Shown: in pieces, positions 121 to 9,572 of the stretch
Layout of the letters: every line of letters begins with the position of its first letter
Numbering within the stretch: the first letter of the stretch is position 1
Assembly (NCBI GenBank): GCA_009930305.1
Contig: RZYM01000011.1
Coordinates: forward strand, 1-64,000
Source: Bacteroidia bacterium
GTDB lineage: Bacteria; Bacteroidota; Bacteroidia; Bacteroidales; Paludibacteraceae
Direction of reading: 5' to 3'
Length of the DNA stretch: 64,000 bases
Notes under the pieces: model-generated
Seen by the model: only the letters and a program-made list of their open reading frames with translations
What the model was told of the DNA's origin: nothing
Databases searched by the model: none
Program-made: the position numbers and the translations under genes

Positions 121-158
121 ATGTGAAATTTTTGCGTATTTACGCAAAAATTTCACAT
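121..158. repeat. Perfect palindrome (18-bp arms, 2-nt centre) left of the ATPase gene; core gtgaaatttttgcgta-tt-tacgcaaaaatttcac at 123-156
   Basis: Read directly; arms are exact reverse complements. Confidence 0.95.
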
Positions 159-160
159 AA

Positions 161-193
161 CTTGTAGTAATTAAAATAAAAACCGTATATTTG
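161..193 (+). promoter_or_regulatory. Bacteroidetes-type promoter: -33 CTTG (161-164), N21, -7 TATATTTG (186-193)
   Basis: Matches the TTTG-N19-21-TAnnTTTG consensus. Confidence 0.55.
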
Positions 194-203
194 CGATAAA
201 TAA

Positions 204-219
204 TTGCGTAAATACGCAA
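204..219. promoter_or_regulatory. Short palindrome ttgcgta-aa-tacgcaa, identical to the core of the flanking 34-bp palindromes; candidate operator
   Basis: Read directly; lies just downstream of the predicted -7 box. Confidence 0.6.
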
Positions 220-232
220 AAAAATATATACA

Positions 233-1495
233 ATGGGAATAAAAAGAGATGATTATCTGCAAAAGCTTATAAACAGACGACACAACAAAATGATAAAAGT
301 TATTACCGGTATGCGTCGCTGTGGAAAATCTTACTTACTATTCAACATTTTCGCCGAATTTCTTAAAGGCCAAGGTGTTATAGAAGATCATATTATAAAA
401 ATAAACTTAGAAGATAGACGAAACAAAGATCTGAGAGCACCGGACAAACTGCTTGAATACATTGATAATAAATTAAAAGATGACAAAATGTATTACATTC
501 TGTTAGACGAAGTGCAATTAGTTGATGAATTTGAGGATGTTCTTAATAGTTTCTTACACGTTGATAACGCCGATGTATACGTAACTGGCAGCAATGCTAA
601 GTTTCTGTCAAAAGATGTGATAACTGAATTTCGTGGGCGAGGCGACGAAGTCCGCATATACCCATTAAGTTTCATTGAGTTTATTTCTGCCTTTCCTCAA
701 GATATAGACAGATATAAAATGCTAGCTGATTATATGACCTACGGGGGTTTACCCCAAATTGTTAGCATGGCTACAGCAGAACAGAAAAAAGAATATCTGC
801 AAAGTTTGTTCAATCACACATATATAAAGGACATAAAAGAGCGATACAAATTACTTGACGATGATGATTTGGATGAACTCGTCAATGTTCTTGCATCGGG
901 TATTGGGGGACTCACAAACCCGACTAAAATTCAACATACATTTCATACTGTCAAAAACAGCCGTATTTCTGTTGGTTCTATTAAAAATTACATAGATTAT
1001 TTGCAAGATGCATTTTTAATTGAAAAATCTATGCGCTACGATATTAAAGGTCGCAAATACATCTCGACTCCTTATAAATATTATTTTGAGGACCTAGGTT
1101 TACGCAATGCCAGATTAAATTTTAGACAAAGCGAACAAACGCACTTAATGGAAAATCTTATATACACAGAACTTCGCAGGCGCGGATATTCTGTTGATGT
1201 AGGACAAGTAACAGAAAACATAAAGAATTCTGCAGGCATTAGCCAACGACGACTACTTGAGGTCGATTTTGTATGTAATTACGGATATAAACGCTGCTAC
1301 ATACAATCAGCATACGCACTTCCTACAGAGCAGAAGCAACAACAAGAATTTGCTTCGCTCTTACGTATAGGCGATGCTTTCCGCAAAGTTGTAATTACCG
1401 GCAACACAATGCAAAACACCTACCAAAATGATGATGGAATTATCATTCTAAACTTATTTGATTTCTTATTAAACAAAGACAGTTTAGGATTGTGA
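233..1495 (+). CDS. AAA-family ATP-binding protein with C-terminal DUF4143-like domain
   Basis: Walker A GMRRCGKS, Walker B YYILLDEVQ, C-terminal LLEVDFV...YIQSAY motif typical of DUF4143 ATPases. Confidence 0.85.
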   Translation: MGIKRDDYLQKLINRRHNKMIKVITGMRRCGKSYLLFNIFAEFLKGQGVIEDHIIKINLEDRRNKDLRAPDKLLEYIDNKLKDDKMYYILLDEVQLVDEFEDVLNSFLHVDNADVYVTGSNAKFLSKDVITEFRGRGDEVRIYPLSFIEFISAFPQDIDRYKMLADYMTYGGLPQIVSMATAEQKKEYLQSLFNHTYIKDIKERYKLLDDDDLDELVNVLASGIGGLTNPTKIQHTFHTVKNSRISVGSIKNYIDYLQDAFLIEKSMRYDIKGRKYISTPYKYYFEDLGLRNARLNFRQSEQTHLMENLIYTELRRRGYSVDVGQVTENIKNSAGISQRRLLEVDFVCNYGYKRCYIQSAYALPTEQKQQQEFASLLRIGDAFRKVVITGNTMQNTYQNDDGIIILNLFDFLLNKDSLGL

Positions 1496-1525
1496 AATTT
1501 TTGCGTAAATACGCAAAAATTTCAC
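1492..1525. repeat. 34-bp palindrome gtgaaatttttgcgta-aa-tacgcaaaaatttcac, exact reverse complement of 123-156; contains the ATPase stop codon
   Basis: Read directly. Confidence 0.95.
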
Positions 1526-9544: not shown

Positions 9545-9572
9545 AATAGGCGAAAATTTATTTTCGCCTATT
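9545..9572 (+). terminator. Hairpin aataggcgaaaat-tt-attttcgcctatt after the regulator gene
   Basis: Perfect 13-bp stem read directly. Confidence 0.6.

Follow-up and report, generated by a model that had tools for sequence, protein, structure and literature searches.

An ATPase gene near the start of contig C193, together with the palindromes around it, is best read as a self-regulated single-gene cassette that comes in with a long direct repeat and goes when the repeat copies recombine, a reading to which we assign a probability of roughly 0.57. The window analysed here, a 64-kb stretch of DNA that runs onward from the first base of the contig, holds the unit in the order O1 - promoter - O2 - ATPase - O3, where O1 to O3 are copies of one palindrome (O). 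We propose that the ATPase most likely binds its own cognate palindrome; seated at O1 and O2, which lie 72-76 bp apart (~seven helical turns) and flank the promoter, it would repress or otherwise control its own transcription. The cassette would arrive as a unit with a long direct repeat, formed either by a stretch of host flank or by the O1 end itself, and ordinary recombination between the direct repeats would suffice for its loss. Where O lies within the repeat, loss would leave a solitary O, much as a solo LTR is left after retrotransposon loss.

Palindromes and layout of the unit

The contig end leaves O1 a left flank of only 120 bp. O1 itself (121..158, unstranded) is a perfect 38-bp palindrome with 18-bp arms, ATGTGAAATTTTTGCGTA-TT-TACGCAAAAATTTCACAT, that lies upstream of the promoter and forms the left boundary of the unit. 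Its right boundary is O3 (1492..1525, unstranded), a perfect 34-bp palindrome with 16-bp arms that overlaps the stop codon of the ATPase ORF. Just 5' of the start codon sits O2 (204..219, unstranded), a 16-bp core palindrome, TTGCGTAAATACGCAA, centred on 211.5 and thus 72 bp from O1, centre to centre. No other perfect palindrome (loop 0-4) in the window is as long as O1 or O3; the longest of the rest, at 9545 with 13-bp arms, resembles a terminator. A terminator role for O1 and O3 themselves was considered and rejected, as a terminator scan called neither of them, and called O2 on the minus strand only.

The first-pass annotation of this DNA had described a right repeat at 1492-1525 with 16-bp arms and a left repeat at 123-156, each palindromic and the two exact reverse complements of one another. 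The right repeat stands as described; the left is a palindrome as claimed and reaches further, to 121-158; and the two 34-mers within O1 and O3 are indeed exact reverse complements, identical in direct reading at 32 of 34 positions. The copy of the core that had been placed at 204-219 is there (O2), and so is the single DUF4143-type ATPase gene at 233-1495 between the repeats. The core had not been noticed elsewhere, and at up to three mismatches we likewise recovered little beyond the unit: O1, O3 and two weak matches in the window, and only O1, O2, O3 and one chance-level site in the 2.69-Mb assembly (197 contigs), where a reversed-pattern control gave two matches. O is private to the ATPase gene within this 2.69-Mb genome. 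The exact palindrome had no match in 2.9 million viral contigs.

Palindromic ends on either side of one gene recall a transposon: O1 and O3 would be the termini of a DDE or HUH element, MITE- or IS200-like and non-autonomous. However, one gene lies between them, with no integrase gene and no transposase domain (a profile search of the unit found only AAA_14 and DUF4143, in agreement with the earlier failure to see a transposase), O is not dispersed through the genome, O2 sits inside the unit at an operator position, and the direct repeats described below are long and variable, making this the least probable of the explanations we considered and an extremely improbable one.

At the contig end, two copies of GGCGCAGCCTATTTTGAACTAAA(T/A)GTTA (1-28 and 77-104) surround a 22-bp palindrome (50-71). 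No further copies of this repeat occur within the window; it is probably dispersed in the genome, and the break in the assembly would be due to it.

The ATPase and its predicted operator pair

The ATPase ORF (233..1495, + strand) encodes 420 aa and matches the AAA_14 profile (113.5 bits, E 9e-33, cut-off 27), the DUF4143 profile (50.8 bits, E 2e-13, cut-off 28.1) and the PADLOC model PDC-S01 (E 3e-121). In its AF2 model (pLDDT 89.5) the AAA+ core is followed by a winged helix and then by a PD-(D/E)XK-like domain. The AAA ATPase domain covers residues ~19-204 (287..844, + strand) and carries Walker A (GMRRCGKS) and Walker B (LLDEVQ) motifs, with 2fna and Orc1/Cdc6 as PDB fold matches; the predicted winged helix, residues 211-285 (863..1087, + strand), is the candidate reader of O; and the PD-(D/E)XK-like domain, residues 302-413 (1136..1471, + strand), has McrC as its fold match. 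E343, D345, Q358, K368, Q371 and E372 are invariant in this nuclease-like domain, where the canonical ExK of the nuclease motif is replaced by QSA, with no lysine at the usual place and the invariant K368 and E372 in the next helix. A PDB sequence search with the ATPase gave no match. By fold, the whole protein matched SSO1545 best and also Orc1/Cdc6, and the C-terminal half matched McrC-type nucleases and then, at weak E-values, PadR/LmrR-type regulators. We take the ATPase to be a STAND/AAA+ protein, its winged helix predicted and its C-terminus PD-(D/E)XK-like.

An AAA+ core with a DNA-binding winged helix, the latter predicted here, is shared with Orc1/Cdc6 initiators and with STAND/AAA+ promoter-binding regulators such as MalT and IniR, and the mycobacterial regulator IniR has an SSO1545-like domain and binds a promoter (PMC5760070). 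In contrast to these proteins, the regulator here has the operator at its own gene, and in place of a sensor repeat its C-terminus carries a PD-(D/E)XK-like domain. Archaeal Orc1/Cdc6 fold matches include structures on origin DNA, raising the idea of a replicator, in which an Orc1/Cdc6-like initiator and its palindromic sites would make up a small circle that integrates via captured host sequence. Integration of a circle would give junctions like those of genome G033 (below), and a 2630-bp circular Prevotella nigrescens record carries the ATPase. Yet that circle is an exact segment bounded by R-M shufflon repeats beside an Mpi-type invertase, and TM-scores of the ATPase to Orc1 are just ~0.3, like those of many AAA+ proteins; we consider a replicator very improbable. 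As an excised cassette, the P. nigrescens 'plasmid' was rejected, and it is a shufflon product or an assembly of one. In P. nigrescens loci L145 (NZ_CP082843.1) and L144 (NZ_CP133466.1), the ATPase lies between Eco57I-type methylase genes, beside the Mpi-type invertase.

A promoter of Bacteroidota type (162..193, + strand) lies between O1 and O2 and consists of TTG (162-164), 21 nt and TAtaTTTG (186-193), in keeping with the known Bacteroidota promoter pattern. O1 is placed just 5' of the -33 element and O2 just 3' of the expected transcription start. Homologues drawn from 101 relatives, 393 genomes of the order, GTDB contigs and further regions provided 118 loci with usable upstream DNA, and in 52 of them the 260 bp before the start codon held a repeated pair that beat all 40 shuffles. 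Among relatives at ≥44% identity, the same criterion returned 34 of 73 (about half), a count that includes the window, where the scan chose the unrelated 28-bp contig-end repeat, leaving 33 real pairs. Spacing was 72-78 bp in 20 of these 33 clear pairs (~2 expected), with the window's 72 bp, measured by hand, excluded from the count; in more distant members it clustered at 80-83 bp (8/18). TAnnTTTG was found between the pair copies at 11 of 23 loci, with 0.9 expected. A third copy of the palindrome within 300 bp of the stop codon was clear at 6 of the 33 loci tested (the window, L077, L078, L082, L011 and L012), and calls at L041 and L067 were weak.

The letters of the palindrome vary by gene (GCGTA, GTGTA, TGTCA, GGTCA, GCCAAT) and the layout is constant, with own-lettered pairs in the same place in relatives from several phyla, as well as in members from Firmicutes MAGs and viral contigs. 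Varying letters in a constant layout are what one would expect if the product of each gene recognised the operators in front of it, and O1 and O2 fit an autoregulatory operator pair that the predicted winged helix would read. The first-pass annotation had offered, as one of its two suggestions, a protein that recognises its own boundaries; the privacy of O to the ATPase and the position of O1 and O2 around the promoter support this, with binding itself as the predicted step. It had also proposed a search for the 34-mer around homologous ATPases, naming a lack of repeats there, or a generic intergenic repeat, as the outcomes that would count against it. We found neither: the closest relatives carry three copies in the same layout.

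This operator anatomy is the best supported part of the picture, and it also speaks for an alternative in which only the regulation is special. According to it, O1 and O2 are operators, O3 and the direct repeats come from tandem duplication or passive homologous capture, as for any hotspot accessory gene, and the ATPase is uninvolved in gain or loss; the sections below bear on its remaining claims.

A family of Acinetobacter plasmid ATPases (35% identity) lies among BREX-like genes and is without the 75-bp pair. Going by hit-table annotation only, Acinetobacter plasmids NZ_CP039147.1 and NZ_CP038646.1 carry a Fic gene where the ATPase would stand, flanked by the same HNH and DUF4236 genes.

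Filled, solo-palindrome and empty sites in relatives

Orthologous sites in relatives, compared in a set of one genome per species, occur as filled, solo-palindrome and empty alleles, so that the empty sites for which the first-pass annotation had suggested looking do exist. Aligned to its congener G551, the filled locus of G033 splits into two blocks with an overlap of exactly 168 bp; the insert measures 1481 bp, G551 has one 168-bp copy and no O at the site, and an empty-site query made of the joined flanks and one repeat copy matches G551 contiguously (94% over 768 bp). The cassette is absent in all seven congeners of G033 that have the site (G551 and six others). The left repeat copy of G033 runs on as in the G550 allele, the right copy as in G551/G545, which suggests that the DNA that came in may have brought along a piece of the target-gene end of its own. 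Single-crossover integration of a circle or fragment carrying some flank would best fit the gain step at this locus; at other loci, a long staggered or template-switch insertion would fit equally. Such junctions also resemble the capture of foreign DNA by ordinary recombination, as expected if regulation alone sets the gene apart.

Within genus g113 (Bacteroidales, 26 genomes), O was found in 11 genomes, six of which hold a close ATPase, always arranged O1-O2-ATPase-O3, and a reversed-pattern control gave zero matches across the 26. Filled G570 and solo-O G559 align over 271 bp on the left (95%) and 2.66 kb on the right (96%), with an overlap of 73 bp that includes O. Further filled/solo pairs in the genus are G331/G397, G397/G331, and G553 against G140 and G571, together with G243/G572, which match on the right flank only. 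Outside g113, the cassette present in G020 and G839 corresponds to a solitary O in G833. By themselves, the solo-O comparisons are compatible with gain or loss.

In g113, solo O and cassette are of matching type at every site, and four genomes with a solo O (G559, G571, G140 and G572) have no ATPase above the E ≤ 1e-60 limit. Both observations would be expected if O were a pre-existing attB-like chromosomal target, with each ATPase type inserting beside its cognate O and duplicating it. In contrast, O-less targets are used in G033 (a gene end), G405 (after rplS), G022 (an AraC gene end) and G087 (a short ORF), and no greater conservation of solo O than of its flanks is apparent by eye. Because O-less targets exist, O is no general target, though it may serve as one in g113, and we regard an attB-like O as improbable.

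The preferred reading, gain with a long direct repeat and loss by recombination between its copies, likens these sites to those of solo LTRs: O is on both sides when the site is filled and single elsewhere, between the same flanks. Unlike an LTR, O is a 34-40 bp palindrome that doubles as operator, and neither a reverse transcriptase nor a transposase is present. Another likeness is to homing endonuclease genes, as lone nuclease-like genes at discrete sites that are present or absent among relatives, but here O is intact on both sides after insertion and O-less targets are used. The direction of each gain or loss and the mode of insertion are inferences. The window's own copy presumably behaved like its relatives; its right flank had no match among 358 family genomes. 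For L020, the only other genome found with the same right flank, G753, is also filled. At the rplS site, 95 of the 99 congeners of G405 give matches free of cassette sequence; their right flanks differ, and the site is therefore not counted as a clean empty site.

Toxin-antitoxin-like and defence modules (Fic, AbiE, YafQ/DinJ and PIN, named by eye from the sequence) directly adjoin a solitary O in g113, at L183, L186, L187, L188, L189 and L193. Immediately left of site A, several g113 genomes (L184, L189, L193) share a 132-aa ORF, which is conserved, and an ATPase of 423 aa with 28% identity. The left side of site A in g113 is a local accessory-gene hotspot.

Flanking direct repeats and the PDC-S01 family

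We scored direct repeats (≥30 bp, ≥80% identity) between the 400-bp stretches to the left and right of each gene. ATPase loci had them in 25 of 112 cases, other ORFs of those loci in 3 of 95 (p 3e-5) and Fic genes in 1 of 25 (p 0.045, from a small Fic sample), the control sets being modest in size. These repeats are of two kinds. Host-flank repeats comprise 88 bp of the rplS end and terminator in G405, 51 bp of the AraC gene end and terminator in G022, 168 bp of a gene end in G033, 79 identical bp at L066 and a whole short ORF in G087. In operator repeats, O1 and some neighbouring DNA recur 3' of the gene as O3 (L077, L078, L082, L011 and L012); the window is of this kind, and its repeat is just O. 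The first-pass annotation had seen no obvious target-site duplication, which is partly a matter of definition, O itself being the direct repeat that flanks the unit. Lengths in clear cases are variable (51-168 bp), with no short fixed-length target duplication. The 'mobile unit' of that annotation survives in part: the filled, solo-palindrome and empty alleles support mobility, and the variable repeats argue against a non-autonomous unit mobilised by a transposase.

The alternative that confines the special features to regulation draws on the toxin-antitoxin and Fic modules at the same hotspots, on one Fic gene that is also palindrome-flanked, and on long near-identical stretches common to different genera, flanks included, as in G020 and G839 (98% over 2.46 kb). 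Against it stands the repeat rate at the ATPases, ~seven times that at neighbour genes and, in the small sample, ~five times that at Fic genes, and we hold it somewhat unlikely. A stronger claim goes beyond the self-regulated cassette: that PDC-S01 ATPases are autonomous single-gene mobile elements of a kind not yet described, whose AAA+/winged-helix/nuclease-like protein would act on cognate palindromes, insert the gene with long variable target duplications and leave solo palindromes behind. We find this doubtful and, on balance, unlikely; if it were true, what ranks in some microbiomes as the commonest 'defence candidate' would for the most part be selfish or addiction-like.

PDC-S01, a phage-defence candidate in PADLOC, is reported to rank fourth in abundance among the predicted defence systems of prokaryotes (PMC12988326) and, with 10,358 copies, first among single loci in rumen genomes (PMC13356809). 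The gene studied here resembles it in profile membership and as a widespread single gene with broad horizontal transfer; private palindromes, 75-bp operator spacing, solo remnants and long flanking repeats were not found in descriptions of PDC-S01 in the papers searched. The literature searched, with preprints and most subscription journals outside it, contained no functional study for DUF4143, AAA_14, PF13173 or PF13635. The private operator would offer a first concrete DNA target for PDC-S01, and orthologous filled and solo-palindrome sites could serve directly to work out the mechanism. A bounded unit that is gained and lost would also mean that counts of PDC-S01 as a defence system must be separated from the gene's own spread.

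Two further loci show related arrangements. At L035, a complete ORF of ~73 codons is duplicated (220 bp, 98.6%) on either side of a divergent ATPase. At L223, a Fic gene has its own palindrome, TAGGGGAAATTTGCAGAAAATTTCCCCTA, on both sides, suggesting that the arrangement may extend beyond ATPases.
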